Below the pieces are notes generated by a model that was not told the origin of the DNA, ran no database searches, and worked only from the letters and a program-made list of their open reading frames with translations. This document shows, one piece after another, positions 28,208 through 56,538 of a stretch of DNA of 64,000 bases. The translations under genes and the position numbers were made by a program. Location: the NCBI RefSeq assembly GCF_030295425.1, contig NZ_AP027081.1:1550001-1614000 (forward strand), in the 5' to 3' direction. The DNA is from Mesoterricola sediminis (GTDB lineage Bacteria; Acidobacteriota; Holophagae; Holophagales; Holophagaceae). Numbering within the stretch: the stretch's first letter is position 1; each line of letters begins with the position of its first letter.

Positions 28208-28284
28208 GGTTCCTTAGCTCAGCTGGTTAGAGCATCTGACTCTTAATCAGAGGGTCCAGGGTTCGAGTCCCTGAGGAACCACCA
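28208..28284 (+). tRNA. tRNA-Lys (anticodon CTT), target of two islands
   Basis: Complete cloverleaf: acceptor GGTTCCT / AGGAACC, D-loop AGCTGGTTA, anticodon stem TCTGA / TCAGA with loop CTCTTAA (anticodon CTT, lysine), T-arm CAGGG TTCGAGT CCCTG, discriminator A and encoded CCA at 28282-28284. Its 3' part from the anticodon stem onward is repeated exactly at 37732 and 56642, showing that integration reconstitutes the gene and leaves partial copies downstream. Confidence 0.96.
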
Positions 28285-28288
28285 GAAA
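28238..28288 (+). repeat. attachment-site repeat 1 (51 bp, inside tRNA-Lys)
   Basis: Runs from GACTCTTAATCAG in the anticodon arm through CCA to GAAA. It is identical to 37732-37782 and 56642-56692. Marks the left end of island 1. Confidence 0.95.
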
Positions 28289-28289
28289 G

Positions 28290-28327
28290 AAAGGGCTGAA
28301 ACTTAACGGTTTCAGCCCTTTCCCTTT
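28290..28327 (+). terminator. terminator downstream of tRNA-Lys
   Basis: 13-bp perfect stem AAAGGGCTGAAAC / GTTTCAGCCCTTT with a 6-nt loop, followed by CCCTTT. It begins right after the att repeat, so it was brought in by island 1. Hairpins of different sequence occupy the same place after att repeats 2 and 3. Confidence 0.8.
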
Positions 28328-28604
28328 ATGTTTTAGTCCGTCAATTTTTGATGGGTTTTGTGCGCCGTGATCACGATGTGATCACATCGTGGACCAATCT
28401 CCCCCTCACCATGACCGGTGACGGTTGAGGCGCGATGCTCGGCCCCCATGGCGAGCCAGGGGGGGCGTAGCCATGCGCGGCCGGGGGCCAGGTGGGTCTT
28501 AAAGCATGGATTCATGTTGGTGTAAATGGGAATTGATGCGAAACAAATTGAAAATATAGGCGAACCTTGGTATGATCTATTCAGAAGGGAGGTGATGCGG
28601 AACC
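28328..28604. promoter_or_regulatory. left arm of island 1 with a 20-bp palindrome
   Basis: No gene is seen here. At 28372-28391 lies the perfect palindrome CACGATGTGATCACATCGTG, and a further TGATCAC at 28368-28374 overlaps it. The same TGATCACA motif occurs three times beside the integrase gene at the other end of the island. Likely binding site for the integrase, excisionase or a repressor. The later part (28510-28590) is AT-rich and could hold the promoter of the 40-aa gene. Confidence 0.6.
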
Positions 28605-28727
28605 ATGGCGACCAGGAAAGTGGGCAGGAGTGCCATCACTGGGGAGTTCGTGAGCATGAAGGAGGTGCAGAAGCACCCTAAGACCACGATCGTCCAGAAG
28701 GTGAAGATCCCCAAGAAGGGCAAGTAA
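28605..28727 (+). CDS. 40-aa basic small protein
   Basis: Begins MATRKVGRSAITGEFVSMKE and ends in VKIPKKGK; very lysine-rich. A strong GGGAGGTGAT site precedes the ATG by 8 nt. The pattern (R-x2-R-x-A-x-TGEFV followed by HPKTTIV and a basic tail) is familiar from small proteins of 40-70 aa found in islands and plasmids of many bacteria, with no assigned function. Too short for the usual gene-length cut-off, but the ribosome site and recurring pattern support it. It is the only plus-strand gene at this end of island 1. Confidence 0.7.
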   Translation: MATRKVGRSAITGEFVSMKEVQKHPKTTIVQKVKIPKKGK

Positions 28728-28941
28728 CGTAACGGGGCAGGGCGGAAGGGCTCCCTCGTCGAGGGGGCCCTTTCTGTTTCACGGGCCGGGCAGGCAGGCA
28801 CCAACGGGCCCAGGTGATCCACGCGGACCGGCCCCGCTCGAAGGGACCAAGATAGCCTGATACCCCGGCCTGCGGCGCCCTGCACGTCCCCGCGGGTGTG
28901 AATCGGATTCATCCCTCCGCCACATTTGGGCCCGGGGCACC

Positions 28942-29328
28942 TCACCCCAACTCGCCCCGCCTCGGAACCGGGGCCGGGCGGGGCTTGTGCTTCCTGGCCG
29001 GTGCCTTCCTGGCCCGGCGCTTGAAGGCGCCCCCCACCTCCGCGGCCAGGGCCTCTTGGAGGCGCTCCACCAGCTCCAGGGCATGGAAGTAGTTCGGCCC
29101 TGGCCTTGGGCCCGCTTGGACCTTCGGGAGGGCCCGCCGCGGATCCCCGAGCCCCGCCTTGTAGGCCACATACCAGGGAAGCACTTCCGCCCAGACGTAA
29201 TAGCACTTGGGGCCCGTGCCGTGTTGCGGGAGTCCCGATTTGCGCCAGTGCATGATGCACCTGGTTGTCACGCCGAAGATGGCGGCCAAGTTGTCCTGTG
29301 AAAGGTGATTGGGCTCGAAAACGAACAT
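28942..29328 (-). CDS. HTH DNA-binding protein (Nu1/terminase-small-subunit-like)
   Basis: 128 aa from ATG 29328, with AAGGAG just upstream. The N-terminus LSQDNLAAIFGVTTRCIMHW forms a helix-turn-helix, continuing RKSGLPQHG as in the winged-helix DNA-binding domain of phage terminase small subunits (Nu1) and MerR-like regulators. The C-terminal third is strongly basic (KRRARKAPARKHKPRP). In satellites, such proteins can redirect packaging or regulate helper genes. Without a large subunit in the window, the packaging role is speculative. Confidence 0.65.
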   Translation of the reverse strand: MFVFEPNHLSQDNLAAIFGVTTRCIMHWRKSGLPQHGTGPKCYYVWAEVLPWYVAYKAGLGDPRRALPKVQAGPRPGPNYFHALELVERLQEALAAEVGGAFKRRARKAPARKHKPRPAPVPRRGELG

Positions 29329-29607
29329 TGTTGCTCCTTGCCTAAAGCGTGTATTTGGCGAAGATGCGGACAGGCTTTCCACGGCGCCCACCCTGGCCCA
29401 AGGGCGAAAACCCGTAGCTCACCGCGTCACCCAATTCCCGAAGCCTGCGTCGATTCCCTTGTGCTTCCTGCACGCTGCGCTCCATGGCGACCCGGAAATG
29501 GGTGTTTGGCCTTCAGCTAGAAAAATGGGGCGGGTTCGTGCGACGCCCTCCTGGCGGCCCCATGGAAGGACCCGTAGGGGGAGAGTGGGGGTGGTAGGGC
29601 CCGGGCA

Positions 29608-29880
29608 TCACCGCAGCCCCACCATGTGCTCGGCCTGGTCATGGGGCAAGCCAGCGCAGAAGGTCAGCACCGCAGCGCGCTCCGCCCGCAGGTAGGGGGC
29701 ATCCTCAGGTTGCGTCTGGCACAGGGCCTCCAGGGTCGGGTCCCAAGGAGAGAATGAATCGTTCCCTCCTTCAGGCGAGGGCACCATGCCCTCACCCTCC
29801 TGGCCCGGGACCAGGGGCGCCTCCTGGCCCGTTCCCTCGGGCACCACGGGCCGGGCGAGGAAGGCATCAAGCCAGGTCAT
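29608..29880 (-). CDS. hypothetical 90-aa acidic protein
   Basis: From ATG 29880, preceded by AGGAAGG. It begins MTWLDAFLARPVVPEG and ends LPHDQAEHMVGLR. A Pro/Gly/Glu-rich middle suggests disorder and the second half (LEALCQTQPEDAPYLRAERAAVL) looks helical. It lies downstream of the primase-helicase gene on the same strand, with the iteron-like array in between, so it could be expressed from a promoter within that array. No function recognised. Confidence 0.5.
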   Translation of the reverse strand: MTWLDAFLARPVVPEGTGQEAPLVPGQEGEGMVPSPEGGNDSFSPWDPTLEALCQTQPEDAPYLRAERAAVLTFCAGLPHDQAEHMVGLR

Positions 29881-29903
29881 GGGCGCCCTGCCTTCCTGAA
29901 TCG

Positions 29904-30137
29904 TGTTCCCTTTGTTCCCTTGTTCCCGAGGTCCAAGAGTCAATGGCCATGCGGCTTTGCAGGGAACACGCCCGATTGTTCCCACCGTGTTCCCTGTTCC
30001 CGGGGGCAGGGAGAGCACACACCCGATGGGAAGGCACGAGAGAGGGAACAAAAAGGGAACAAATCAGGGAACACGAATACATGTTCCCTTCAAACCCAAT
30101 CCCCATGCGGCTTTCGGCCCTGGGAACAAGGGGAACA
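29904..30137. repeat. iteron-like array of 13 TGTTCCC / GGGAACA heptamers
   Basis: TGTTCCC occurs at 29904, 29913, 29921, 29977, 29988, 29995 and 30082. The complement GGGAACA occurs at 29962, 30044, 30055, 30067, 30122 and 30131. Several are spaced 11-12 bp apart, close to one helical turn. The array is just downstream of the primase-helicase gene, so it is a good candidate for the replication origin of the excised element (P4-like elements use iterons bound by their alpha protein), or an operator cluster. Confidence 0.75.
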
Positions 30138-30159
30138 CGAAGGATGATCCATCCGGGGA

Positions 30160-32967
30160 TCATTCGTCATCCCCGCCGATGTGCCGCGCGATGCCCGCGG
30201 CCCGGACCACATAGCACCTGGTCTTTCCGATGCCCCATAGTTTCAGGCTCCTGGACGGGTTCCCGTCCGCGCCTGGTTCAAGGATCCCGGCGGCGGCGCA
30301 GGCACGAGCCACGCTGCCGGGGCTGAAACCCGCGGTAGCCTCCTTCCACCCCGAGGGGAGGAAGAAGAAGTCCCACCCTTCCACCGGGCCCTCCGCATGG
30401 CGTTTCAGGCCCGCCCGGTTGTGCACCGTCTCCTCCACGCCCCAGGTCTGAAACCTGGCTTGCTGGTGCCTGGAAATGAAGTCCAGCACCGCCTCAATCC
30501 CCCGGTGCACCTCGGAGGCTCCGGTGAATCCCCGGCGATCAAGCCAGGCTTTGAAACAGACCTGGGCGGCCCGGGATGCCTCGCCCTCGGGCCATGGGAG
30601 GATCCCCATTCCCTGGGCCAACTCCCCTGCTACGGCGACCAGGGCGAATCGCCCCGCCACCCGTCGAACCTGGGCATCGGCCCCCATAGGCACCACCTGG
30701 GCCAGCCATACGCGTTCCATCTCCTGGAGCCGGGCCTGCAGGGCGCCGGCGCCGGGGCCTGCATCACAAAGGCGCCCGAGGAAGGCGCGGATGGGCTGCC
30801 CATAGTGGGCCCGGGCCTGGGCCTTCAGGTGCTCCGCCAGGTGCCCCAGGGAGGGAAGTTCGTGGGCCTTGTCGAACATCCCCGTCTCGGGGCAGGGGAT
30901 GTCAGGGACGCGCACTTCCTGGCCGGCTCGGGCCCGCTGGCCCCCCTCCTGCATCTTGTCCTCAAGGCCCTGTTCCCCGCTGGACAGGAAGACCAGGCGC
31001 CATTGACGCATGGTCCGGGCCCCGCCCTCCCTGGTCGCCCGGGCCTTGGCGCTCCCGTTCGCCAGCATGTAGGCCACGGAACCGGCCTCCCGGGGGTCCA
31101 CTTGGCCCAGCTCATCTAGGGCGAGGAAGCCATCATTCCGGGTCGCGGCGATGCCCTCCAGGCCATTCCCCGTGGCCCGCCAGGTGGGAAGGGGGTCCGG
31201 GCGCCCCCACACGCTGGCGGCAGCCTCCAGGCAGGTGGACTTCCCCTTGGACGAGAAGCCCATGAGGTTGAACCCCCCGCCCCCGTCCGGTCGCACCATG
31301 TCCAGGAGGGGCCCCGCGAAGGCGCAAGCCAAGGCGAATGCTAGGCGGGGGTTCCCCACGGCGAACCGGGCCACACCTTCACGCCATCCCTCCAGGGTTC
31401 CGGCCACCTGGCGGCCCTGGGGCCCGGCCATCTCACCCGCGTAGCGCACGGGCTCCGTCGGGTTCCCGATCACCTCCCCGCCCGGGAGCACGTAGGCGCC
31501 AGGGACCCATCCCAGGGCATCCACCAGCCGCACGCGGGGGCCCCGCTGGAGGGCCTGGGCAGCCCCACACAGGTAGCGCAGCAGGTGGCGGCGTAGGGCG
31601 GGTTCCGGGGGCAGGATGAGCCCGCCCTGGCCCATGGTCCGCGCCAGCTCGGCACCTTCGCCCGTTAGTAGCTCGAAGGGCAGGGCCTCCTCATGCGGAA
31701 TCCGGTCCGGGTCCTGCCAGGCGATGAGTAGGCGCCAGCCGGTGCTCCGTTCATCGCGGACCAGGCCGGGCAGGGTGAAGGGCGGGGCGATCCACACCCG
31801 CTCCGCCGGCCTGGGGTTCCCTTCATCGTCCTTCCCGGCGGGGGCCTTCAGGTGGAACAGGCCTCGGGGCCCCCACTCGAAGCCTCTCACCCGGGGCCGC
31901 GCATGGTCCTGTGGGGTCGGTTCCGAATCTCCTCCCTCCGGGCCCGCCTGACCATGGTCATCATGACCATGGTTTGACGCCTTCGGGCCTTCCCTCCACA
32001 GGCGTCCGCGGGGATGCCCGGCGATCTGGAAGGCATTCGCGGCCTTGTGGCGCAGCTCCTCCATGGACCAGGTGGGCTCGCACAGGGCGGGTACGTTGTA
32101 GTGCTCCGCCACCAGCTCCAACGCCTCCGCCTCGGAGAGGTCGAAGCCTTGAATCACCTTCAGGAAGGCATCCAGCAGGGCCCGGCTCCCATCCTGGCCT
32201 TGGATGGAGGGTTCACCCCGCCGGAGGTAGGCGCCCACCCGCTCCCGCCAGTTTGCGGGGCGGCCCGCGGGGGAGTCGCGTTTCATCCCCTCCTCTGGCT
32301 CGCCCTGGGGGGGGGCGGTGATAGCACCGACCACGGGCGGCGGGAACGCCTCCCGCACCTGGTCCCGGGTCCACCGGGGCCCGTCCGCGGTCACCAGCTC
32401 CACCAGGTGCGGCCCTGCCTTCCGGTGCATGAAACCAGGTACCCGAAGGACCCGGGCCACCTCGCACACTTGGCGATCCGCACCGAAGGGTGCCAGGGCC
32501 TCCCGGATGGTCCGCAGCTCCGCCTCATGCTCCGCCTGGCGCTCGGCGTCTCCTCCGGGCATGGGTTCCAACGGCAGCCAGTAGAGATGCGCCCCGCCCG
32601 GGGTCCTCACCGTCATGGAGGGCGCCAAGGGCAGGCGGGCCGCGTCGAAGGGCTCCCGGGCATCCTTGGAATCCAGGTCCGCCCACCAGGCCCGCAGGGT
32701 CTGGACGTTCTCTTTCTTCCGGGCCCGGCCATCGGTGCCGTTCACCGTTACGAAGATGCCGGCGCCCGCCCCATTGAGGCGCCGCAGCTCGGCCAGGTGC
32801 TCCCGGAGGGATCCATGCATGGTCCGGGCCAGGTCCCGCCGGCGCTCCCCTCCAGGCTTCTCGTCATCAAAGGTCTGCCAGGTCACGGCCTGGTCCAGGG
32901 CATCCGACGGGGCGCACCCCAGGAGGCAGGCCAGGAACGGCAGGGCATGGGTTCGGATCTCATCCAC
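30160..32967 (-). CDS. primase-helicase replication protein (RepB-like primase plus DUF927)
   Basis: 935 aa from GTG 32967, which has AGGGGG upstream; an in-frame TTG at 32997 is possible. The N-terminal third resembles RepB-type primases of plasmids and phages: RAWWADLDSKDAREPFD, a TPGGAHLYW strand and VLRVPGFMHRK. The C-terminal half is a DUF927 helicase: Walker A MGFSSKGKST at roughly residue 570 and the acidic FLALDELGQVDP as Walker B. It should unwind and prime the element's own origin. It overlaps the upstream small gene by 8 nt in a compact minus-strand operon and is followed by the iteron-like array. Confidence 0.85.
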   Translation of the reverse strand: MDEIRTHALPFLACLLGCAPSDALDQAVTWQTFDDEKPGGERRRDLARTMHGSLREHLAELRRLNGAGAGIFVTVNGTDGRARKKENVQTLRAWWADLDSKDAREPFDAARLPLAPSMTVRTPGGAHLYWLPLEPMPGGDAERQAEHEAELRTIREALAPFGADRQVCEVARVLRVPGFMHRKAGPHLVELVTADGPRWTRDQVREAFPPPVVGAITAPPQGEPEEGMKRDSPAGRPANWRERVGAYLRRGEPSIQGQDGSRALLDAFLKVIQGFDLSEAEALELVAEHYNVPALCEPTWSMEELRHKAANAFQIAGHPRGRLWREGPKASNHGHDDHGQAGPEGGDSEPTPQDHARPRVRGFEWGPRGLFHLKAPAGKDDEGNPRPAERVWIAPPFTLPGLVRDERSTGWRLLIAWQDPDRIPHEEALPFELLTGEGAELARTMGQGGLILPPEPALRRHLLRYLCGAAQALQRGPRVRLVDALGWVPGAYVLPGGEVIGNPTEPVRYAGEMAGPQGRQVAGTLEGWREGVARFAVGNPRLAFALACAFAGPLLDMVRPDGGGGFNLMGFSSKGKSTCLEAAASVWGRPDPLPTWRATGNGLEGIAATRNDGFLALDELGQVDPREAGSVAYMLANGSAKARATREGGARTMRQWRLVFLSSGEQGLEDKMQEGGQRARAGQEVRVPDIPCPETGMFDKAHELPSLGHLAEHLKAQARAHYGQPIRAFLGRLCDAGPGAGALQARLQEMERVWLAQVVPMGADAQVRRVAGRFALVAVAGELAQGMGILPWPEGEASRAAQVCFKAWLDRRGFTGASEVHRGIEAVLDFISRHQQARFQTWGVEETVHNRAGLKRHAEGPVEGWDFFFLPSGWKEATAGFSPGSVARACAAAGILEPGADGNPSRSLKLWGIGKTRCYVVRAAGIARHIGGDDE

Positions 32968-33157
32968 GGGGGACCCCCTGGCGCTTGAGGTAGGCAAGCA
33001 CCACGCCCGCCAGAAGGTGGAAATCAGTGGCCCGGGCCTGGAGTCGATCCAGGAGGGCCTCGGGGGAGGGCAGGCATTCCATGGCCCGCATCCTGTCCAG
33101 CTCTTGGAGGGCGAGCGCGGCGGCTACCATGCCGGCCACGGATTCATGGTCGGTCAC
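32960..33157 (-). CDS. hypothetical 65-aa protein
   Basis: Starts at GTG 33157 in a GTGA overlap with the preceding gene's stop and ends within the start of the primase-helicase gene. The sequence is helical (VTDHESVAGMVAAALALQEL, then ALLDRLQARATDFHLLAGVVLAYL). The overlaps on both sides indicate translational coupling within the replication operon. Unknown function. Confidence 0.6.
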   Translation of the reverse strand: MTDHESVAGMVAAALALQELDRMRAMECLPSPEALLDRLQARATDFHLLAGVVLAYLKRQGVPRG

Positions 33158-33492
33158 ATGCCCTCCTGCCAGAGGATCACGCGGTCCGGGGCTTCCGCCT
33201 CCAGGGCCAGGAAAAGGGCGGCGCCCCAGGGCTTTCCGGCGTCCGTTTCGTGGATGCCGACCTTTCCCCGGATGTAGGCCACCCGCACATGCTCGGTAGC
33301 ACCATGCCAAGGGAGCACGACGACGCCTCCCCCCCAGGGCTTGCACTTCCGCCGGGCCCACTTCGGGAGGGCAGCGCGCTCGAGGAGATACCGGGCATGA
33401 TCCCGGAGGCTCACGGGCTCGCCTTTCTTGTTCAACCAGATGTCAATTTGGAAAGTGTCGGCCTTTGTCAGGACCAATGGCTTGGGGGTCAT
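33154..33492 (-). CDS. hypothetical 112-aa protein
   Basis: From ATG 33492, overlapping the stop of the upstream gene by 4 nt. The protein is basic in the middle (LPKWARRKCKPWGG) and has alternating hydrophobic strands (GVVVLPWHGATEHVRVAYI, then AALFLALEAEAPDRVILWQ). No family recognised. Part of the minus-strand replication operon of island 1. Confidence 0.6.
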   Translation of the reverse strand: MTPKPLVLTKADTFQIDIWLNKKGEPVSLRDHARYLLERAALPKWARRKCKPWGGGVVVLPWHGATEHVRVAYIRGKVGIHETDAGKPWGAALFLALEAEAPDRVILWQEGM

Positions 33493-33971
33493 GCTCCACC
33501 CCGCCGGAACCAGGTCAGGCCCAGCCGATGGGCCACGAAAGGCGGAAGGGCTTCATAGGCCTTCGCCATGCTCTCCATATCCCGGAGCACCGATTCCCAC
33601 GTGCTTCCGGGCTCTTCGGCCATGTAGACCGCGAAGAGGAAGAGATTCAGGAACGCCCCAGGATGAGGCCCAGTCCCGGGCATGAACAGCAGCTCCCCGC
33701 GGCCAATGACAGCTTGGACCGCTGGGGCCGCCATCCACCGCGCGGCGCTCCCCTCCTCGGCGCCAGTCCACTCCTCCAGGAGGAGAAGGGCGTCCGCAGA
33801 ATCAGGTTTCCCCCAGCCCCGGGCCTTTTCGATATACCGGGATGTTGCCGGTTCCGGCCACTTCGGTAGGTTCGCGGCCCCCGCCTCCTCATATGCCGCG
33901 AAGGTTTCCAAATCGATTTTCGCTTGATCGTCCGAGGTCCCGCACACCTCGGCCCGCACATGTCCCCGCAT
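33489..33971 (-). CDS. hypothetical 160-aa protein
   Basis: From ATG 33971 near the end of the AlpA-like gene (3 bp gap). Mostly helical and acidic: IDLETFAAYEEAGAANLPKW, ALLLLEEWTGAEEG and WESVLRDMESMAKAYEALPP. Four-nucleotide overlap with the next gene. No motif recognised; probably a replication accessory or regulatory protein by position. Confidence 0.6.
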   Translation of the reverse strand: MRGHVRAEVCGTSDDQAKIDLETFAAYEEAGAANLPKWPEPATSRYIEKARGWGKPDSADALLLLEEWTGAEEGSAARWMAAPAVQAVIGRGELLFMPGTGPHPGAFLNLFLFAVYMAEEPGSTWESVLRDMESMAKAYEALPPFVAHRLGLTWFRRGGA

Positions 33972-33974
33972 CGC

Positions 33975-34199
33975 TCACTCTCCCTTTGCTGTGATCTTCC
34001 GGAGGTTGAGCCACGAGTCCACGTCCGCGCGGCGATAGCGTACCGCGGCGCCGAGCTTGACATAATCGGGTCCGATCCCCTTGGTGCGCCAGTCTGCGAG
34101 GGTGAGGACGGACACCTTGAGATAGGCGGCACACGCCCGGGGATCCATGAGCGGGTCCCGCAGGTCAGCCGAAAGCGTCACTTCTTGATTGGATTTCAT
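33975..34199 (-). CDS. AlpA/excisionase-like helix-turn-helix regulator
   Basis: 74 aa. The core MDPRACAAYLKVSVLTLADW, followed by RTKGIGPDYVKLGAAVRYRRADVDSWL, is the MerR-like winged helix of the AlpA/HTH_17 family (helix, LKVS turn, then the VRYRxxDVxxWL wing). In P4-like elements this family activates integrase and promotes excision. It is the first gene of the replication operon, so it probably also autoregulates the promoter in the AT-rich region upstream. Confidence 0.85.
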   Translation of the reverse strand: MKSNQEVTLSADLRDPLMDPRACAAYLKVSVLTLADWRTKGIGPDYVKLGAAVRYRRADVDSWLNLRKITAKGE

Positions 34200-34518
34200 C
34201 TTGCCTCCATGGGGCCAATCGTGGCCTTTGGGCAGGATGAGGCTGCCTAGCGCGTGGGGCGTTCCAGTGGGCAGACACGCGTGATTCTATTGGTACTTCT
34301 TGAAATTTATGGGTGCGTTGGTGGCTGGGGGTCATTTCCCAGGATAAATGCATTTGTTGATAATAAAGCTACATGACTTTCATGCAATGTCTCAAAGCGT
34401 TCCACATCACTGGAACGGATCGTGATGACTTGACGGCGCGGCGGGCCGGTGCGGGAACCGGCGTTCGGGAGCTACCCTAGCCGCGCCGTTTTCAGGATAG
34501 GTGCCTCGGATCCGCGTT
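34200..34518 (-). promoter_or_regulatory. AT-rich control region upstream of the replication operon
   Basis: No gene is visible. Bases 34275-34400 are clearly AT-rich against the surrounding DNA, containing TTTGTTGATAATAAAG and TACATGACTTTCATGCAATG. This is the expected place for the promoter of the AlpA-replication operon. Exact boxes are not assigned. Confidence 0.45.
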
Positions 34519-34836
34519 TCAAACACGGCTGGGCATGTTCACCGGCGCGGGCCCGGCCTGGGCCTCCATGGTCCGGAGAGCGTAGAACGCAGGCTGGACC
34601 CTAGCTTCCACCCCGTCCGCGATTAGGGAAAGGAGGGAAGGGAGGAGCATGAAGGCAGAGTCCAGGCGTTTCTCAACCTCGTCCGTTTCCTTGACCAGGT
34701 GGAGCGGAATATCCCGGATCTCCGCCAGCATCCGGAGGGACTCCGCAACTTCCAGGGACCCTTGGGCCAGCTCTTGCAGGGGTCCCGCTAGGACTCGAGA
34801 TGTTGCCGCGGTTTGGGGAGCGATTTTCACGGCCAT
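34519..34836 (-). CDS. hypothetical 105-aa helical protein
   Basis: From ATG 34836. Largely alpha-helical with heptad-like spacing: LQELAQGSLEVAESLRMLAE, then VKETDEVEKRLDSAFMLLPSLLSL. No catalytic motif. It follows two DNA-binding-protein genes on the same strand and may belong with them. The longer open frame upstream overlaps the neighbouring gene and was not adopted. Confidence 0.55.
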   Translation of the reverse strand: MAVKIAPQTAATSRVLAGPLQELAQGSLEVAESLRMLAEIRDIPLHLVKETDEVEKRLDSAFMLLPSLLSLIADGVEARVQPAFYALRTMEAQAGPAPVNMPSRV

Positions 34837-34913
34837 GGATGGCCTCCATGAAAAGGCCGGGGGGCAGCCGGCGAGGGGGGGTGCTCGCCAAATTCGGTGA
34901 GCACAACTCAGGG

Positions 34914-35177
34914 TTATTCGGACGGGGAAGTCGTGCGCCGGGGGCGCCCCGGGCCGCGCAACTGTCGGGCCTGGGTCTTCTCTTCGAACCATGCCAGGAG
35001 AAGGCTTTCCTTGAATGCCCATCCCCCTGTGAATGGATTGGTGACCACCGGCAGGCCTTCCTGGCGCACGAGGCGGGTCAGGGCCGGGTACGAAATGCGC
35101 TTTACTCCCTTCATCTGGCCCAGGATTTCGCGGGCCTTGTTCAGGCTGAGGAGGGGCTCGATTTCGAAAGGCTTCAT
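34914..35177 (-). CDS. putative DNA-binding protein, 87 aa
   Basis: From ATG 35177 in a 4-nt overlap with the upstream gene. The segment LSLNKAREILGQMKGVKRIS, followed by YPALTRLVRQEGLPVVTNPF, has the layout of a small winged HTH related to excisionases, ending in a basic RGPGRPRR tail like an AT-hook. Likely a regulator cotranscribed with the ribbon-helix-helix gene. No named family. Confidence 0.6.
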   Translation of the reverse strand: MKPFEIEPLLSLNKAREILGQMKGVKRISYPALTRLVRQEGLPVVTNPFTGGWAFKESLLLAWFEEKTQARQLRGPGRPRRTTSPSE

Positions 35178-35536
35178 TCTCCCATCTCCCGTTTCGCTTG
35201 AGCCAAGGCCAAAGCCTGCGACCATGCGCGCCTGAGGGCGGCCAGGGCCGCGCCGCGGTCCTCCTGGGCCGCCAGGAAGGCGGCGGCCTCCTTGGCGATT
35301 TCCAGGGCGGCAGGAGGCAGGGAAGGGGTCTCCATTCCAGGGACCCCTTTCGGCGCCTGGCTCACCAGGTCCTCCACCAGGCGCCAGGCGGGCACCCCGC
35401 GGGCCTCCGCGAGGTCTCGGAGCTGGCCCGCGACCTGGGGGCTCAAGCGCAAACGCACTTCCTCAACCTCGCCCTCCCGCCGGGGCCGGCCTCCGCCAGC
35501 TCCGCGCCCGGCGCCTGGGTTCTTCGCAACGGCCAT
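35174..35536 (-). CDS. ribbon-helix-helix-like regulator, 120 aa
   Basis: A Gly/Arg-rich leader is followed by VRLRLSPQVAGQLRDLAEARG, then VPAWRLVEDLV, a strand and two helices as in ribbon-helix-helix DNA-binding domains. A helical Ala/Leu-rich C-terminus follows. ATG 35536 has GGCAGGAGGTGAG upstream, a strong ribosome site. It is the first gene of a three-gene minus-strand cluster. The family call rests on pattern only. Confidence 0.6.
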   Translation of the reverse strand: MAVAKNPGAGRGAGGGRPRREGEVEEVRLRLSPQVAGQLRDLAEARGVPAWRLVEDLVSQAPKGVPGMETPSLPPAALEIAKEAAAFLAAQEDRGAALAALRRAWSQALALAQAKREMGE

Positions 35537-35729
35537 CGGCTCACCTCCTGCCGAGGATCATCCCCCCTCGCGCGCGGGAAGGCAAGAAAGATTTCGAGCC
35601 GTAACAACTTTCGATAATATCCATTATGTAACCAAAGAATCGCTTTAAGCCAAGTCATTTCAGCACCGAATTTTCGTGGATTAAGGGTTCGTGTTCTGGG
35701 TAGCCTTTTGGAACCCCCCAGGAGCCCCA

Positions 35730-36191
35730 ATGGCGACCCCATTTCCCATCACCTGTGATGTCTGCGGTGAACTGATCCACCAGCCCGAACACGGGATGCT
35801 GGCTTGGTTTAGCCAGTTGGGCACCCTAAAAGTTCATGATATTCGAATTGTTCATCACGCCATCCACAGCCCGCAGGGGCAAGGACGATGCTGCTTCCAT
35901 ACAGTGGAGCGGGCGGGATTCGTCCCTGGGGACCTTCACCTCTCGGGTGTCGTTGGGCCTGATGGAATCATGGACCTCTTGGAGATGATGAACACCCGCC
36001 ACGCTGACCCTGAGAGAGTTTCGGAATTGCTCAAACGCCTCTTTGTGCCGGGGTACGAGCAGGCCCGGCACCATATCAGCGCGGCTATCCAAGAAGGGGA
36101 ACTGGAGCCGAACCGGGCGCATGGCTACTACTCTTCTGAGCAGATCAAGGCGGTCCTGAAATTCGCGGCAGCAAATCAGGGGCAGGATTAG
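35730..36191 (+). CDS. hypothetical 153-aa zinc-ribbon-like cargo protein
   Basis: From ATG 35730 with AGGAG upstream. It begins MATPFPITCDVCGELIHQPE with a CxxC pair and has later histidine and cysteine residues (HDIRIVHHAIH, RCCFH) that could complete a metal site. The C-terminal half is helical. It is convergent with the integrase gene, 7 bp apart, and stands alone on the plus strand, so it may be island cargo. Composition is less GC-rich than its neighbours. Function unknown. Confidence 0.65.
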   Translation: MATPFPITCDVCGELIHQPEHGMLAWFSQLGTLKVHDIRIVHHAIHSPQGQGRCCFHTVERAGFVPGDLHLSGVVGPDGIMDLLEMMNTRHADPERVSELLKRLFVPGYEQARHHISAAIQEGELEPNRAHGYYSSEQIKAVLKFAAANQGQD

Positions 36192-36198
36192 AAGACTG

Positions 36199-37566
36199 TC
36201 ACGAGGCACCCCTGCCTTTTCCCTCCTTCGCCCTCCGGCGCTCCTCGGCTTCCTTCTCCGGGTCAATGGCGCCCGTGAGAATACCTTCGATTCGGGCGCC
36301 GATCTTCTCCGCAGCCTGGTGCAGGGGATCCGCGGCGCTCCGTGTGTAAATGTCCGTCACAGTGGCCTCTGCATGGCCCAGGAGCTCGCCCACGAAGCCC
36401 TTGAGGCCCAGGTCCGCTCCAACGCTGGCGAAGGTGCGCCGGAGGTCATGGAGGCCCGGGTTGTTCTCAGGGTCCAGGTATTCCCCCGTCTTCTCATCCC
36501 TGGGGGCCAGTCCTGCGGCATCGCGGATCCGCTCCCAGGCCTTCTGGAGGCCCTGGATAGGGGCCCAGCCTGCCACCTTGCCTTCGTCGTTCCGCTCCGG
36601 CCGGCCCGGGATCACGAATGGGCATCCGAGCGTCCGCGGAGCGGCCTTCATGTGTGTCACCAGGGCCTCGCACAGGTGGACCACCCGGGCCCGCTGGGTC
36701 TTCCTGCCCGTCTTGTGGGCCTCCTTCGGGATTCGGATTTCCCCTGCCCGCAGGTCCACCCACTCCCAGCGGGCCCCGGCAACCTCGCCCTTCCGCATCC
36801 CCGCGAGGAGCGCGAGGCGCACCGCCAAGACAAGCTGGGCCGGCTCCGCGGATTTCTGGAGGGTGGCCCCCAGTTTCTTCAACTCAATGTCCGACAGGCG
36901 CCGCTCCCGCTTCACCTCCGGGGCCCTCTGCTTCACCACGGCCACCGGGTTGGAGCCCAGGGGGCGCAGCTCCCATTCCTCGGCCCGCCCGAACATGGTC
37001 CGCATGACGGCCCGCACACGGTTGGCCTGTGTCGGGGTGGCCTGCCTGATCTTGAAGAGCATCGCAGATACGTCCGCGGGGCCCACGGCCGCCACCGGCA
37101 GTTTCCCCAGGGCCGGCAGGATGAAGAGCTTGACCAGGCGCTTGGTCTCATCCCCCCAGCTTTCCCCCAACTCGGGCACGTGCTCCAGCTCGTATCGCTC
37201 GGCCAGGTCCTTCACCGTCACCGCAGCCCGCCGGGCTTCCTCCGCAGCCTTCCTGGCATTCGCCTTCGCCAGGCCAGGGTCCGTGCCGGCGTCGATCTTC
37301 GTCTGGGCCGCCCGGGATGCTTTCTCAGCCATCTCCGGCCCCATGGCGGGATACCGGCCCAGGGTAAGTGACTTCTGGAAGCCCGCGAACCTGTAACGGT
37401 GGACCCAGGCCTTTACCCCCGAGGGCAGCACCCGCAGATTGAGCCCCTGGACAGCCTGGCTCTTGGCGTTCACCACCGGCACGAAGTAAGGGCCCGCTTC
37501 GGGCGCCAGGTCCTCCACAGCGGCCTTCACAAGGCGGATGGGTGGCCTTTCCTTCTTCTCGCCCAT
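36199..37566 (-). CDS. tyrosine-type site-specific integrase of island 1
   Basis: 455 aa of the P4/CP4-57 integrase type, with the N-terminal DUF4102-like arm-binding domain (LNLRVLPSGVKAWVHRYRF, LTLGRYPAMG). Catalytic residues: R258 in LLAGMRKGEV, H373 and R376 in HDLRRTF, H398 in LLGHAEAT and nucleophile Y407 in DIYTRS. All are present, so it should be active. The ATG has GGAGG upstream and lies next to inverted TGATCAC repeats, consistent with self-regulated expression from the att region. It inserts the element into the 3' end of tRNA-Lys and might act on all three att copies. Confidence 0.94.
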   Translation of the reverse strand: MGEKKERPPIRLVKAAVEDLAPEAGPYFVPVVNAKSQAVQGLNLRVLPSGVKAWVHRYRFAGFQKSLTLGRYPAMGPEMAEKASRAAQTKIDAGTDPGLAKANARKAAEEARRAAVTVKDLAERYELEHVPELGESWGDETKRLVKLFILPALGKLPVAAVGPADVSAMLFKIRQATPTQANRVRAVMRTMFGRAEEWELRPLGSNPVAVVKQRAPEVKRERRLSDIELKKLGATLQKSAEPAQLVLAVRLALLAGMRKGEVAGARWEWVDLRAGEIRIPKEAHKTGRKTQRARVVHLCEALVTHMKAAPRTLGCPFVIPGRPERNDEGKVAGWAPIQGLQKAWERIRDAAGLAPRDEKTGEYLDPENNPGLHDLRRTFASVGADLGLKGFVGELLGHAEATVTDIYTRSAADPLHQAAEKIGARIEGILTGAIDPEKEAEERRRAKEGKGRGAS

Positions 37567-37574
37567 GGGGTCCT

Positions 37575-37621
37575 CCAGGATGTGATCATGGCTCCGTGAT
37601 CACAATATGATCACATCCTGG
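37575..37621. promoter_or_regulatory. inverted TGATCAC repeats beside the integrase gene
   Basis: A 14-bp perfect inverted repeat CCAGGATGTGATCA (37575-37588) / TGATCACATCCTGG (37608-37621) encloses a third TGATCACA at 37597-37604. The same motif forms a 20-bp palindrome at the opposite end of the island (28372). Probably integrase arm sites or an operator overlapping the integrase promoter. Confidence 0.7.
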
Positions 37622-37731
37622 GCCATTGTCAGCCTATTTATTCATAGAAGTGCCAACAATGATTTGGCCTAAATGTCTTATTTGCCAGTATTCTCCATTC
37701 TTCACAAATATGGGCCAATGGCTTTCCTTGA

Positions 37732-37782
37732 GACTCTTAATCAGAGGGTCCAGGGTTCGAGTCCCTGAGGAACCACCAGAAA
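37732..37782 (+). repeat. attachment-site repeat 2 (51 bp, junction of the islands)
   Basis: Exact copy of the tRNA-Lys 3' end. The 5' half of the tRNA is absent here, so this is not a functional tRNA gene. It separates island 1 from island 2. Confidence 0.95.
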
Positions 37783-37784
37783 AG

Positions 37785-37816
37785 AAAGCCCCGAAGGTTA
37801 AAAACTTCGGGGCTTT
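37785..37816 (+). terminator. terminator-like hairpin after att repeat 2
   Basis: 12-bp stem AAAGCCCCGAAG / CTTCGGGGCTTT with an 8-nt loop, then CCCTATT. Same position relative to the att repeat as the hairpins at 28290 and 56694, but an unrelated stem sequence. Confidence 0.75.
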
Positions 37817-38204
37817 CCCTATTGGCTATAGCGGGGCGATTCCGGCAAGCCTTCTGGGGTAATCGATACCCCGTTACCACAGTGAGGATTGCGGCTAGGT
37901 AGAGGCACTCCCTGGCTGGGGAGAACTCCCGGAACTTTGTATGGGGTTCTCAAAAGCGTTGGCGGGCTTCCGGTCGAGGGCAGGGCGGGCATGGGATCGC
38001 CGGGGCATTCCGATGGCATATCAGGTCGATGCATCCACCCGGCCGGGGACGGTCGGTTCTCGGGCAGCCCGGTGGCGTTCCTCTGTTTCCAGAAGGCTGC
38101 GTAACACCTATGTGCCCATTAGGGCCAGCCCATTGCTCGCCTCGGTTTGATGCCAGAGGGATTCGGGCTCGAACACGGTTGCAGATGCGGAAGGAGGTGG
38201 GGGG
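37817..38204. other. left arm of island 2, non-coding
   Basis: No convincing gene. Near the edge lie GGTAATCG (37858-37865), GTTACCAC (37873-37880) and AGGTAGAGGCA (37897-37907). Related words CGATTACCAC, GGTTACC and AGGTAGACGCA occur at 56539-56583 beside the integrase start at the other end of the island, so both may be arm-type recombination sites. The remainder is GC-rich DNA without visible structure. Confidence 0.45.
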
Positions 38205-38339
38205 TGTCAAGCGACATCAAAATTGACCCACCAGGCGACACGAAAACTGACCCACCTGGTAGTTGGGAACTGAAGCCGCCGGGGTGTCCGGAGCGGAGGC
38301 CGTAGGCCGTAGCGCAGGACATCCCGGCGGGCGCGGCCA

Positions 38340-39116
38340 TCATCCGGCCACTTCCTTGGCTGGCACGACGCCAGCCCGGCGCTTTTCCTTGAGGCGGTAG
38401 CTCTCTCCCTTGATCGTCACGATATGGCTGTGGTGCAGGAGCCTGTCCAGGATGGCCGTCGCGACCACCTCGTCCCCCAGCATCTCTCCCCAGGAGCCCA
38501 CGGGCTGGTTGCTGGTGATCATCAGGCTGCCCTTCTCGTAGCGCTTCCGCACCAGATGAAAGAACAGATGCCCGGACCGTCGCTCCATGGGCAGGTAGCC
38601 GAGCTCGTCCACGACCAGGACATGGGGGCGGGCGAATACCCTCAGGGCCTCATCCAGCGCCCCGTGGTCCGAGGCCGCCGCCAGTTGGTGGACCAGGTCC
38701 GCGGCGTGGATGAACCTGGCGCTGTATCCCTGCTCGATGGCCTTCCGAGCCAAGGCGATGGCCAGATGGGTCTTTCCCACGCCCGGCGGCCCCAGGAGCA
38801 GGACATTCGTTGCGTTGGCGACGTAGCGTCCCGTCTCCAGTTCCGTCACAAGGCGGCGGTCCAGGCTGGGCTGCAGGCTGAAGTCGTAGTCCTCCATGCG
38901 CCGGTCCAAGGGGAACTTGGCCATCTGGATCCGCATCCGGGCCCGCTTCTGGTCCTTGCTTTCGATTTCCTCCCTGATCACCAAGTCGAGAAAGTCCAGG
39001 AAACTCATCTCGTTCTGGGCCCCGCGGTCCAGGAGGGTGTCCAGGCGCTCCCGGGTGCTGACCAGCTTCAGCCGGGTCAGGTGACGCTCCAGACGTTCGA
39101 GCCGGGGATCTACCAT
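38340..39116 (-). CDS. istB: IS21-family helper ATPase IstB (copy A)
   Basis: 258 aa AAA+ ATPase related to DnaC that assists the IstA transposase in target capture. Walker A is LLGPPGVGKTHLAIALA, Walker B is VLVVDELGYLP, and the sensor motif is MITSNQPVG. Start overlaps the istA stop by 7 nt as in intact copies. Appears complete, though its partner istA in this copy is truncated. Confidence 0.93.
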   Translation of the reverse strand: MVDPRLERLERHLTRLKLVSTRERLDTLLDRGAQNEMSFLDFLDLVIREEIESKDQKRARMRIQMAKFPLDRRMEDYDFSLQPSLDRRLVTELETGRYVANATNVLLLGPPGVGKTHLAIALARKAIEQGYSARFIHAADLVHQLAAASDHGALDEALRVFARPHVLVVDELGYLPMERRSGHLFFHLVRKRYEKGSLMITSNQPVGSWGEMLGDEVVATAILDRLLHHSHIVTIKGESYRLKEKRRAGVVPAKEVAG

Positions 39117-40069
39117 GCCTCACCTCCCACGATGGCGGCGTAGTGGGAGAGTGGCCGCCGGATCTCGCTGGGTTTGCCCACCCGGGCGATGCCGTTGGTG
39201 AAGCTGACGGCGTGACCAGGATCCTCGATGACTTGGCGGCGTCCTGGATGGACCGGATGCTCCGCGATCACCTGGTCCTGGCAGAACACCTGGATGGTGT
39301 CGGCCTCGACGGTCACCTCCAGGGTGGCCCCGATGAACTGGGGCGGGACGCTGTAGCGGTTGGTATCCACATCGATCCGGCCATCCGCAGCCACCGTCCG
39401 GGACAGGTGGCGCACCAGGAGGTAGCTGGGATGGTTCCCAATCGGGCGCAAGGCCGCCTTCTCCGCCGGAAATCGATCTATCGGCCTCTCGCCGGTGGTC
39501 CCGTGGATCCGGGTGTCGGCCACGTTGAGCATCCACCAGACCAGGTGCTCGTCCAGGGCCTCATCGGATTCCCAGCCCTCGCGGCCAAGGGCATTCCCTT
39601 TGGCATAGCCGACGCTCCGTTCCACCTTGCCTTTCGTTTTCGCCCGGAACGGCTGGCAGGCCCTGGGAACTGTGCCCCAGTGCCGGCAGAAGGCGTCGAA
39701 TTCCGGGTGGAAGACGGGGATACCAGCCTTGCGCCTGTCCACCAGTGGCTTGGCATTGTCGGTTAGGAGGATCTCCGGGACGCCCTCGAAGTGCTGGAAG
39801 GCCCGTTCGATGCCCATGATCCAATCCCGCTGGCGGAGGCTTCCGGAGATCTCGATATAGCACCGCCGGCTGTAGCCGAGGGTCGCCACGAACACATAAC
39901 GCTTCTGACGGACGCCCCCGATCTGCAACCACTTCTCCCCGAAGTCCACCTGCATCTGCTTGCCAGGCGGGGTCTCGAACCGGACCGTGGCCTGCTCAGC
40001 CCTTTCGTAGCTCTGCCGGAAAGGGCGGAGGGCTCTCTCGACGGTCCGCAGGCTCACGGAAACGCCGAT
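39110..40069 (-). pseudogene. istA: IS21-family transposase IstA (copy A), 5'-truncated
   Basis: Carries about 315 of 417 residues, starting at VSVSLRTVERALRPF; the N-terminal helix-turn-helix is missing. The DDE core QMQVDFGEKW and LLTDNAKPLVD is present. At the point where intact copies continue upstream (after GCCGAT), the sequence jumps into the end of copy B. The frame remains open into that end but gives no meaningful protein there. Confidence 0.88.
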
Positions 40070-40140
40070 TATCGGGCGACATCCGAAACTGACCCACTTG
40101 CGACACGAATTCTGACCCACCCCCCCGAAAGGAGGAGGGC

Positions 40141-41394
40141 ATGGAGTTCGAACCGCGGGACGCTGGTCTCCATAAGCCGGAGGCCAGAATGCTCGGAGAC
40201 GGTGCAGTGGCCCAAATATTTGCTTTGCAGAACTTGGGCTGGTCGATCCGAAAGATCGCCCGGGAGGTCGGCCTCTCTCGGAATACGGTCCGGGACTGGC
40301 TTCGTGGAGGGCCGGACAGAAGCTATGGAAACGGCTCCCGGGCCGGCCTCCTGGACAGGTATTACTTCTGGATCCAGAACCAGTTCAACGCAGGGGTCCG
40401 GAATGCCGATGTCCTTCGCCAGGAACTGGAGGCCATCGGAGTCTCCGTGAGCCTGCGGACCGTCGAGAGGGCCCTCCGCCCCTTCCGGCAGAGCTACGAG
40501 AGGGCTGAGCAGGCCACGGTGCGGTTCGAGACCCCGCTAGGCAAGCAGATGCAGGTGGACTTCGGGGAGAAGTGGCTGCAGATCGGCGGAGTCCGGCAGA
40601 AGCGCTACGTGTTCGTGGCGACCCTCGGCTACAGCCGGCGGTGCTATATCGAGATCTCCGGAAGCCTCCGCCAGCGGGATTGGATCATGGGCATCGAACG
40701 GGCCTTCCAGCACTTCGAGGGCGTCCCGGAGATCCTCCTAACCGACAATGCCAAGCCACTGGTGGACAGGCGCAAGGCTGGTATCCCCGTCTTCCACCCG
40801 GAATTCGACGCCTTCTGCCGGCACTGGGGCACAGTTCCCAGGGCCTGCCAGCCGTTCCGGGCGAAAACGAAAGGCAAGGTGGAACGGAGCGTCGGCTATG
40901 CCAAAGGGAATGCCCTTGGCCGCGAGGGCTGGGAATCCGATGAGGCCCTGGACGAGCACCTGGTCTGGTGGATGCTCAACGTGGCCGACACCCGGATCCA
41001 CGGGACCACCGGCGAGAGGCCGATAGATCGATTTCCGGCGGAGAAGGCGGCCTTGCGCCCGATTGGGAACCATCCCAGCTACCTCCTGGTGCGCCACCTG
41101 TCCCGGACGGTGGCTGCGGATGGCCGGATCGATGTGGATACCAACCGCTACAGCGTCCCGCCCCAGTTCATCGGGGCCACCCTGGAGGTGACCGTCGAGG
41201 CCGACACCATCCAGGTGTTCTGCCAGGACCAGGTGATCGCGGAGCATCCGGTCCATCCAGGACGCCGCCAAGTCATCGAGGATCCTGGTCACGCCGTCAG
41301 CTTCACCAACGGCATCGCCCGGGTGGGCAAACCCAGCGAGATCCGGCGGCCGCTCTCCCACTACGCCGCCATCGTGGGAGGTGAGGCATGGTAG
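40141..41394 (+). CDS. istA: IS21-family transposase IstA (copy B)
   Basis: 417 aa. The N-terminal helix-turn-helix is LGWSIRKIAREVGLSRNTVR. The rve/DDE domain has QMQVDFGEKWLQIGG and LLTDNAKPLVD, and the C-terminal beta domain has VDTNRYSVPPQFIG. AGGAGG precedes the ATG. Its stop overlaps istB by 7 nt, as usual in the family. All parts are present, so this copy may be functional. Confidence 0.95.
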   Translation: MEFEPRDAGLHKPEARMLGDGAVAQIFALQNLGWSIRKIAREVGLSRNTVRDWLRGGPDRSYGNGSRAGLLDRYYFWIQNQFNAGVRNADVLRQELEAIGVSVSLRTVERALRPFRQSYERAEQATVRFETPLGKQMQVDFGEKWLQIGGVRQKRYVFVATLGYSRRCYIEISGSLRQRDWIMGIERAFQHFEGVPEILLTDNAKPLVDRRKAGIPVFHPEFDAFCRHWGTVPRACQPFRAKTKGKVERSVGYAKGNALGREGWESDEALDEHLVWWMLNVADTRIHGTTGERPIDRFPAEKAALRPIGNHPSYLLVRHLSRTVAADGRIDVDTNRYSVPPQFIGATLEVTVEADTIQVFCQDQVIAEHPVHPGRRQVIEDPGHAVSFTNGIARVGKPSEIRRPLSHYAAIVGGEAW

Positions 41395-42164
41395 ATCCCC
41401 GCCTCGAACGCCTGGAGCGTCACCTGACCCGGCTGAAGCTGGTCAGCACCCGGGAACGCCTGGACACCCTCCTGGACCGCGGAGCTCAGAACGAAATGAG
41501 TTTCCTCGACTTCCTGGACCTGGTGATCAAGGAGGAAATCGAGAGCAAGGACCAGAAGCGCGCCCGGATGCGGATCCAGATGGCCAAGTTCCCCTTGGAC
41601 CGGCGCATGGAGGACTACGACTTCAGCCTGCAGCCCAGCCTGGACCGCCGCCTTGTGACGGAACTGGAGACGGGACGCTACGTCGCCAACGCAACGAATG
41701 TCCTGCTCCTGGGGCCGCCGGGCGTGGGAAAGACCCATCTGGCCATCGCCTTGGCTCGGAAGGCCATCGAGCAGGGATACAGCGCCAGGTTCATCCACGC
41801 CGCGGACCTGGTCCACCAACTGGCGGCGGCCTCGGACCACGGGGCGCTGGATGAGGCCCTGAGGGTATTCGCCCGCCCCCATGTCCTGGTCGTGGACGAG
41901 CTCGGCTACCTGCCCATGGAGCGACGGTCCGGGCATCTGTTCTTTCATCTGGTGCGGAAGCGCTACGAGAAGGGCAGCCTGATGATCACCAGCAACCAGC
42001 CCGTGGGCTCCTGGGGAGAGATGCTGGGGGACGAGGTGGTCGCGACGGCCATCCTGGACAGGCTCCTGCACCACAGCCATATCGTGACGATCAAGGGAGA
42101 GAGCTACCGCCTCAAGGAAAAGCGCCGGGCTGGCGTCGTGCCAGCCAAGGAAGTGGCCGGATGA
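41388..42164 (+). CDS. istB: IS21-family helper ATPase IstB (copy B)
   Basis: 258 aa, nearly identical to copy A. Walker A is GPPGVGKTHL and Walker B is VVDELGYL. Starts inside the istA stop (ATGGTAGATCC), indicating coupled translation. Complete. Confidence 0.95.
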   Translation: MVDPRLERLERHLTRLKLVSTRERLDTLLDRGAQNEMSFLDFLDLVIKEEIESKDQKRARMRIQMAKFPLDRRMEDYDFSLQPSLDRRLVTELETGRYVANATNVLLLGPPGVGKTHLAIALARKAIEQGYSARFIHAADLVHQLAAASDHGALDEALRVFARPHVLVVDELGYLPMERRSGHLFFHLVRKRYEKGSLMITSNQPVGSWGEMLGDEVVATAILDRLLHHSHIVTIKGESYRLKEKRRAGVVPAKEVAG

Positions 42165-42299
42165 TGGCCGCGCCCGCCGGGATGTCCTGCGCTACGGCCT
42201 ACGGCCTCCGCTCCGGACACCCCGGCGGCTTCAGTTCCCAACTACCAGGTGGGTCAGTTTTCGTGTCGCCTGGTGGGTCAATTTTGATGTCGCTTGACA

Positions 42300-42807
42300 G
42301 AGGGCAACACGCCCACCCCCCCCGGTCCGAGGTCCAAGCCTTCGGGCATCCAGGGCGCACCTGCCCCGCTCCTTTCGAGGCGACCCAGGGCTGCTCCCTT
42401 CGGTCCGCTGGCCTGGGTCCCAACCGCCTTTCCAGTCGCTCTTCGCTGCGCTCGCCCGGCACGGGAGCCGCACCCGTGCCGGGTCGATAGGCTTTGGCAG
42501 GCGCATCCTCGATGCCCTCCGGTTCTCCCCCCTTCCCGAGGCGCTTCACCCGAAGGTCTTGCCTTCCTGGTCAACAGGACGATGTCGAGAAAGTGAAGTG
42601 TTGTGCCAGGAGAGGATCCTTGGCGCGCGCCTGCGGTCTAGTCTTTATCTAAAGATAATGAATACATGGTTTACATTTATGAAAGCCAAGAGGGCACGGT
42701 GGCCGATTTCTGTCCAGGAGTGGCCTGCTTGTGGGGAGCAGGCGTGGTCTGATTCTGGAGGGCGGCCAAGTTGAAATTCTGCTTTCCGCTTACTCTGCTT
42801 GGTTGAC
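42300..42807. other. non-coding boundary between IS copy B and AT-rich cargo
   Basis: The left 290 bp are GC-rich with no credible gene; short open frames here have low-complexity Arg/Pro/Ala translations. From about 42600 the DNA turns abruptly AT-rich and remains so through the channel gene. No promoter or terminator can be named with confidence. Confidence 0.4.
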
Positions 42808-43794
42808 CTACTCTTGGTCTGCCTCGAGAATTACGTCTCCCGTTGAAGCTTGTGCTTGGCTTGGGTTGATGATACTGTCAATAATTTTGTGGCAAAGTCT
42901 GTTAGATATTCTTAATTTACTAGCAATGGTCTTGTGAATGTTTTTTGGCCAGGGCTGGAGTGGTAATAGATTGTTTACTGATTTTACTAGTTCTGGTGTT
43001 ATCTCAGAATAATAATGAATTTGCTCGTTGTTTATTTTGGATTTATTGTAGTGGTCAAAAATTCGTTGAATACGGTTATTGATTGGAATAAAGATGTCTG
43101 GTTGATCTTCCTGGTATAGCAAGGCTAGGGTCTTTTTGATCTGCCTCATCAACCGTTCGATTCGAGATTGCTCTCTTGGGGTTGCAAATGCTTCCATGCC
43201 GGCCATGGAAGCAAATTCGGCAGCTCGAATAATCGTGCGAGCCACTTTTAATGAACCTTTTTTTGCCCATCCTTCTCCGATAGCACCAACCCTAAGTTGA
43301 TATCCATAATAATGATTCAGATTGGCGACAATTGTCTCGAGTTCTTCGATGTATCTCATTTTTGAAATATGGTCATGATTTAGCATCGCATTTTTTAGGC
43401 CCTTTCCGCATTCTTCGATAGCAATGAAGAAAGAACTCAGTCTTCTTTCATTGTCGCTGGTGTAAAGCAATTTAATTAGGGTAGAAGTCCGGTCAGATGC
43501 TAACTTTGATACAATAATCGCCATTATTATGATGCCGCTTATTACTTCGAAGGATGCAAAGAGGCGTCCATAGCCTAGGGGAATATAGTCACCATATCCA
43601 AGAGTTGTGATAGTGGTTATGCTAAAATATAAACAGTTTAAAATTGTGATCGGTTCGTTAGGATTGCTTGCATTTCTAATTCCATTCGTTCCTGATGAGA
43701 AGTTGTAGTAATAGGCTGTAAAAAATAATATGTTGCAAATTAAACTTAAAACCCAAGTTCTGGTATTCGATTTGTCGATTATCTTGGTTAACAC
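42808..43794 (-). CDS. potassium-channel-like membrane protein with cytoplasmic domain
   Basis: 328 aa from GTG 43794, which follows AAGGGGAG by 3 nt; an in-frame ATG at 43827 has no ribosome site. A first membrane helix lies at about 13-30. The pore loop ends in the potassium selectivity filter TTLGYGD (about 63-69) and a second helix is at about 80-98, the two-helix-plus-pore (Ion_trans_2) layout. The C-terminal 220 residues are soluble and helical with no RCK/TrkA nucleotide fold. AT-rich and divergent from a PIN-like gene. Channels with a sensing cytoplasmic domain occur as toxic effectors in phage defence, so an effector role is possible; ordinary ion transport is the alternative. Confidence 0.8.
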   Translation of the reverse strand: MLTKIIDKSNTRTWVLSLICNILFFTAYYYNFSSGTNGIRNASNPNEPITILNCLYFSITTITTLGYGDYIPLGYGRLFASFEVISGIIIMAIIVSKLASDRTSTLIKLLYTSDNERRLSSFFIAIEECGKGLKNAMLNHDHISKMRYIEELETIVANLNHYYGYQLRVGAIGEGWAKKGSLKVARTIIRAAEFASMAGMEAFATPREQSRIERLMRQIKKTLALLYQEDQPDIFIPINNRIQRIFDHYNKSKINNEQIHYYSEITPELVKSVNNLLPLQPWPKNIHKTIASKLRISNRLCHKIIDSIINPSQAQASTGDVILEADQE

Positions 43795-43809
43795 GGTCTC
43801 CCCTTGAAA

Positions 43810-45852: not shown

Positions 45853-45892
45853 TGAAAATTCCGAGCGTCTAGGATTTTTGACATCAAAAAAT

Positions 45893-56494: not shown

Positions 56495-56538
56495 GAAACC
56501 GCCTCACAGATCCCTCTTGGATGCACTGGTGGGGCGCA

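Follow-up and report, generated by a model that had tools for sequence, protein, structure and literature searches.

A mirrored heptamer array behind a DUF927 primase-helicase gene is a probable iteron-type origin of a PICI-like element in the Holophagaceae

Results

The window analyzed here, a stretch of 64,000 nt from the 4,524,604-bp genome of Mesoterricola sediminis, carries an integrated element of 9.5 kb (28238–37782), bounded by exact 51-bp direct repeats at 28238–28288 and 37732–37782, the left copy being the 3′ end of a tRNA-Lys gene (28208–28284). The recognized genes of the element all lie on the minus strand. They encode a tyrosine integrase with an arm-binding domain (36199–37566; PF00589, E 1e-13; PF13356, E 2e-13) and an AlpA/excisionase-like helix-turn-helix protein (34914–35225; a weak HTH_17 match, E 0.003, under the curated cut-off), followed by small unknown genes, a primase-helicase that we call Rep (30160–32997), an array of heptamers, and a small gene just beyond the array (29608–29880) that has no family match. 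Last comes a possible terminase-small-subunit (TerS)/Nu1-like gene (28942–29328), whose match is weak (phrog_57, E 7e-5; Phage_Nu1, E 0.001, sub-cut-off) and whose fold model (pLDDT 57) was too poor and was left out. No tail or lysis family was matched among the element genes scanned, and a search of the genome for a helper-phage terminase with the two families GpA_ATPase and TerL_ATPase found none. Near the element ends we also observed a near-identical palindromic pair, GTGATCACnATnTGATCACAT, in direct orientation at 28367–28387 and 37596–37616; these may be arm sites for the integrase or sites for a regulator.

A third exact copy of the tRNA-Lys repeat, at 56642–56692, delimits a second island of 18.9 kb (37732–56692) in tandem with the first element. 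Its integrase gene (53043–56494, minus strand) is interrupted by an IS21-like insertion (53495–55518) that separates an N-part (55544–56494) from a C-part (53043–53498), and two head-to-head IS21-like copies, the left one without a transposase N-terminus, lie immediately right of the first element (38340–42164). On the plus strand, the region 46380–52911 encodes a protein of 1538 aa whose N-terminus is DUF676 esterase-like and which has HTH_upstream_double_PIN and PIN-TPR-GreABC domains, after which comes a Permuted_GreAB-C protein; these genes look like a predicted TPR-GreAB-C-PIN conflict system.

Rep combines a RepB/archaeo-eukaryotic-type primase with a DUF927 AAA+ helicase. With TTG as the start codon, its gene encodes 945 aa, while the 935 aa given in the initial annotation would be obtained from a possible later start. 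The DUF927 match is strong (E 2e-62), and the RepB_primase match, weak in the window Rep, is above the curated cut-off in a 61%-identical protein of Geothrix paludis (L028, see below). An AlphaFold2 model covering the residues encoded by 30163–31794 (mean pLDDT 78) found as its best solved match the initiator helicase Rep of SaPIbov1 (8tch; Z 26.4 over 445 residues, with an rmsd of 8.5 that probably reflects several domains across a long alignment) and as its second the Cch protein of SCCmec (5dgk; Z 25.8), the next structural matches being MCM helicases at Z about 12. At the C-terminus (30163–30474, minus strand), the model shows a strand-helix-helix-strand-strand arrangement with pLDDT above 80, which, as modeled, is the order of a winged helix; we consider this domain the putative iteron reader. 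A comparison with the C-terminus of P4 alpha, weak because alpha was used as a single sequence, detected no homology to the DUF927 C-terminal domain.

The array begins 22 bp 3′ of the rep stop codon, immediately downstream of the replication gene as initially described. It consists of 13 perfect TGTTCCC/GGGAACA heptamers within 234 bp (29904–30137), seven forward (29904, 29913, 29921, 29977, 29988, 29995, and 30082) and six reverse (29962, 30044, 30055, 30067, 30122, and 30131), exactly the count first reported. In 20 Markov-simulated 64-kb windows of the same composition, no heptamer of any kind exceeded 7 copies per 234 bp. A pattern search of the whole genome placed all seven TGTTCCC-N0..5-TGTTCCC doublets inside the array, and the reversed control pattern had zero matches in the same 4.52 Mb. 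Simulation and doublet search thus led us to reject chance clustering. We also rejected coding through the array, where the ORFs at 29754–30326, 29867–30163, and 29903–30214 are open frames with no other support. Inside the element, the single TGTTCCC beyond the array lies within rep, at 30971, and a second heptamer cluster comparable to ori1 of P4 was not found, leaving one cluster only.

Along the plus strand, the heptamers are ordered +++-+++ and then ---+--, forming a left half-array (29904–30001) and a right half-array (30044–30137) on either side of a G+C-rich centre of 42 bp without heptamers (30002–30043). The spacings are 7, 8, 9, 11, 12, and 15 bp, together with two gaps of 40–41 bp; the 11–12 bp noted initially do occur, but they do not dominate. 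Read from the outside inward, they run 9, 8, 41, 15, 11, and 7 bp on the left and 9, 40, 15, 12, and 11 bp on the right, such that the array is nearly its own mirror image, a symmetry absent from the initial annotation: 10 of the 13 sites have, within 1 bp of the mirrored position, a counterpart in the opposite orientation. When gaps and orientations were shuffled 500 times, no shuffle matched this, giving p 0.002, the lowest value attainable. Around the array, A+T content over 40 bp peaks in the right half (30046–30085; 62% A+T, vs. 34% in the surrounding 14 kb), and both long spacers contain an 11-bp direct repeat, CATGCGGCTTT (29948–29958 and 30104–30114), which is present nowhere else in the window.

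DUF927 genes were gathered in related genomes and on plasmids, phages, and viral contigs. Scans of the genome and viral contigs with single proteins gave no match and an alignment of 25 sequences was too diverse as a search query, whereas narrower alignments succeeded. Relatives of Rep are present in 18 of 77 Holophagaceae genomes, the source genome included. Among the search matches, the named records were Geothrix terrae SG184, Geothrix paludis SG195, and an uncultured Holophagaceae bacterium. In 60 of the 82 distinct homologues (distinct C-termini with enough 3′ DNA), a significant array of short repeats, with one word in mixed orientation, lies no more than 500 bp past the 3′ end of the gene; no such array lies upstream of the gene in any of the 76 with enough upstream DNA. 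No significant array was found in the other 22 of the 82, including a relative from the same family (L031, 45% identical). Among the array-bearing homologues are some from small plasmids and some from satellites, P4-like or capsid-bearing, and in unrelated elements with different genes downstream the array keeps its place 3′ of the DUF927 gene.

The repeat word varies among homologues: GGGAACA in the window becomes GGAACACCT in L028, TTGTCCC(A) in L030, TGGTAACA in Salmonella (L048), GGTGGAACA in E. coli (L054), TGGGACA in Legionella (L049), GGTGTGACA in Methylobacterium (L056), TGAACCAAC in Klebsiella (L061), GTTACAC in Photobacterium (L062), and GTGGACA in L065, and GGGAACA itself is found again in Halomonas and Pseudomonas elements (L082–L085, L052). 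These words have in common a loose, GGTGnnACA-like scaffold, and the 9-bp spacing recurs across most of the other arrays. Arrays without mirror symmetry are common; the symmetry reached p below 0.05 in 23 of 59 scored arrays, counted by eye among arrays of which the related ones are not independent. Hence, of the conservation next to homologous primase genes considered in the initial annotation, place and style hold in the 60 homologues while the word itself diverges, and the mixed orientation, which is indeed present and had been thought unusual, is normal for this kind of rep-ori, as seen in the homologue arrays and in crr of P4.

Geothrix paludis carries a sister element of 7.2 kb (L028, 6456–13705), with 36-bp repeats at a tRNA-Glu gene and the same order as in the window: integrase, HTH_17 gene, RepB_primase-DUF927 Rep, array, small gene, and Nu1-like gene. 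There, the match of the HTH_17 gene, which lies between integrase and rep, is above the cut-off (E 2e-9), the ORF in the place of the 29608–29880 gene (12369–12737) is similar to it by eye, and the protein in the place of the TerS-like product of 28942–29328 is 37% identical to it. Separately, the Photobacterium toruni plasmid pCECT9189-4 (L062), which carries a 13-copy GTTACAC array behind its DUF927 gene, also encodes a protelomerase in the same record; this style of origin may thus serve a hairpin-ended linear replicon too.

We then asked which part of Rep reads the word. Across all homologues, word similarity tracks helicase identity (Mantel r 0.40) as well as C-terminal identity (0.37); neither the global Mantel test nor partial correlations separated the C-terminal domain from the helicase, and a comparison of same-word with different-word pairs was not significant. 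Since these tests failed to discriminate, the assignment to the C-terminal domain rests on three cases, from enterobacterial relatives rather than the Holophagaceae lineage, in which the C-terminal domain and the array are exchanged together and the word is changed, the rest of the protein being about 95–100% identical. One contig, L060, is possibly chimeric, as less than 80% of it is found in any one region of a complete E. coli genome, and we therefore sought independent contigs, L187 and L188, which showed the same exchange. Compared with L168, their helicase parts are 99.7–100% identical in protein, vs. 47% for the C-terminal domains, and their word is TAACCCA instead of AACCAAC. At the DNA level, L187 and L168 are 94–100% identical up to about −300 relative to the stop codon, 39–62% identical between there and about +300, and again 82–98% identical across the 400 bases that follow. 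The pairs L202/L205 and L208/L214 display the same pattern of exchange, with new words. Between L180 and L168, a quarter of the C-terminal positions differ, but the word is the same and the SGRGYQ-KSPRIDGRQINVYV stretch is mostly retained. The C-terminal domain and the array therefore behave as one specificity cassette. Given this co-exchange, the array is likely bound by the C-terminal domain of Rep rather than by the AlpA-like protein, which had initially been named as a candidate binder alongside the primase-helicase; for the window Rep itself, the role of the domain as reader is predicted by homology.

Discussion

Based on these results, which support the origin suggested in the initial annotation, we propose, with a probability of roughly 0.88, that the array at 29904–30137 is the iteron-type replication origin of a PICI/satellite-like element, read by the C-terminal domain of the element's own Rep, and that its mirrored halves load two hexamers. 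The array and its symmetry, its place 3′ of rep, the fold class of Rep, the arrangement conserved in homologues, and the co-exchange in relatives all speak for an origin, as do the published origins of PICIs and SaPIs and crr of P4; the centre of the array, which is not A+T-rich, unlike published PICI origins, counts against it. From this evidence we infer a course of excision, binding, double-hexamer loading, melting, and priming. The integrase would excise the element as a circle, the winged-helix C-terminal domain of Rep would bind GGGAACA in either half-array, and the mirror-image halves would place two Rep hexamers face to face. The AAA+ (DUF927) motors could then open and unwind the DNA, either between the hexamers or next to them, and the primase domain, at the opposite end of the same polypeptide, would lay primers for the host polymerase.

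The dense operator that the initial annotation offered as an alternative is the strongest rival, though an unlikely one. The array would then mainly allow Rep, the AlpA-like protein, or another regulator of the element to control the 29608–29880 gene and the TerS-like gene. The small gene probably starts about 24 bp beyond the array, its promoter may be in or beside the array, and iterons often double as autoregulatory sites; the array may have an additional operator role. However, its position 3′ of the DUF927 gene across unrelated elements with different downstream genes, its absence upstream of rep in all 76 homologues, the change of word upon exchange of the Rep C-terminal domain, and the presence of 13 sites in a two-half mirror, which is more than normal operator design, all argue against a mainly regulatory function. 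Still less probable, in our estimation, is that the array is an incompatibility or copy-control locus, a helper region like crr of P4, with the true start elsewhere in the element. In P4 the repeats beside alpha form crr and the annotated origin is a different type I cluster, at a distance of about 4.7 kb, whereas the present element has one cluster, its sole extra TGTTCCC being the copy in rep, and the SaPI/PICI origin is a single 3′ site (PMC6092414). Another kind of DNA handling, such as pac/cos-like packaging by the TerS-like protein, is hardly credible: a weak TerS/Nu1-like gene does follow the array and terminase sites can be repeated, but array and word go with Rep, also in plasmids and elements with no such gene annotated nearby.

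Read as the origin of its element, the array is of a known kind, here in a family of bacteria that is not among the groups from which that kind has been described. On this reading, the Holophagaceae (Geothrix and relatives), beyond the PICI groups of the cited papers, harbor a satellite-like island whose origin is read by its own protein, and the combination of array position and DUF927 provides a simple route to the origins of such elements. A more interesting lead than a single origin is the exchange of cassettes with a readable word code. In this broader proposal, to which we give even odds, the C-terminal domain and the iteron array of DUF927 satellites and plasmids would form an exchangeable specificity cassette of roughly 0.6 kb, each element having its own word on the GGTGnnACA-like scaffold; the Holophagaceae element would bring PICI-like satellites into the Acidobacteriota, and the words could serve as a code predicting which elements are incompatible or open to in-trans replication. 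Nature provides dozens of Rep/array pairs, several differing mainly by the exchange of C-terminal domain and array, and the DNA-reading rules of initiator helicases are therefore directly testable.

Among known systems, classical iteron plasmids of the Rep_3/RepA type likewise have multiple short initiator-binding repeats at the origin, but their iterons are about 20 bp long and in one orientation, and their Rep has neither helicase nor primase. The Cch protein of SCCmec has the same fold as the window Rep (5dgk, Z 25.8) without a primase fused to the helicase, and SCCmec recombinases are of the serine type, in contrast to the tyrosine integrase found here. For Cch2, it is the C-terminal domain that binds short repeats lying 3′ of the gene (PMC7581432), and the word read is AAGTG, in direct repeats. 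In P4, crr is annotated beside the 3′ end of alpha and type I repeats occur in both orientations. P4 thus resembles the window in having two-orientation repeats beside the 3′ end of a primase-helicase gene, with a type I word, GGTGAACA, very similar to the window word. It differs in that alpha consists of Toprim primase, D5_N, and Pox_D5 instead of DUF927 and a RepB-type primase, in that crr is a direct 120-bp duplication, and in having a second cluster (ori1), which the window element does not.

The likeness is closest to PICIs and SaPIs. PICI origins lie directly 3′ of rep, with two iteron sets around an A+T-rich region, and pri-rep-ori of EcCICFT073 sustains a plasmid (PMC6092414); in SaPIs, the iterons, which lie 3′ of rep, are read by the C-terminal domain of Rep (PMC7581432), and DUF927 has been placed with the satellite ‘Primase’ family (PMC10111431). 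The window element likewise has short iterons directly 3′ of rep, two iteron sets (29904–30001 and 30044–30137), and a DUF927-type Rep with the SaPIbov1 Rep fold, in an island with a tyrosine integrase, a weakly matched AlpA-like gene, one transcription direction, a specific att site (51-bp repeats, tRNA-Lys), and no tail genes matched. Some PICIs also carry a terS homologue, for which the window element has a weakly matched candidate, and PICIs are induced and packaged by a helper phage. The whole element is here called PICI-like. It differs by the archaeo-eukaryotic-type primase fused to Rep, by the word GGGAACA, by a host outside the Proteobacteria and Firmicutes, and by the G+C-rich centre of the array (30002–30043), where the published sets flank an A+T-rich region. 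Since an A+T-rich centre is missing, we call the module related to a PICI rep-ori and probably working like one, rather than a textbook member of that class.
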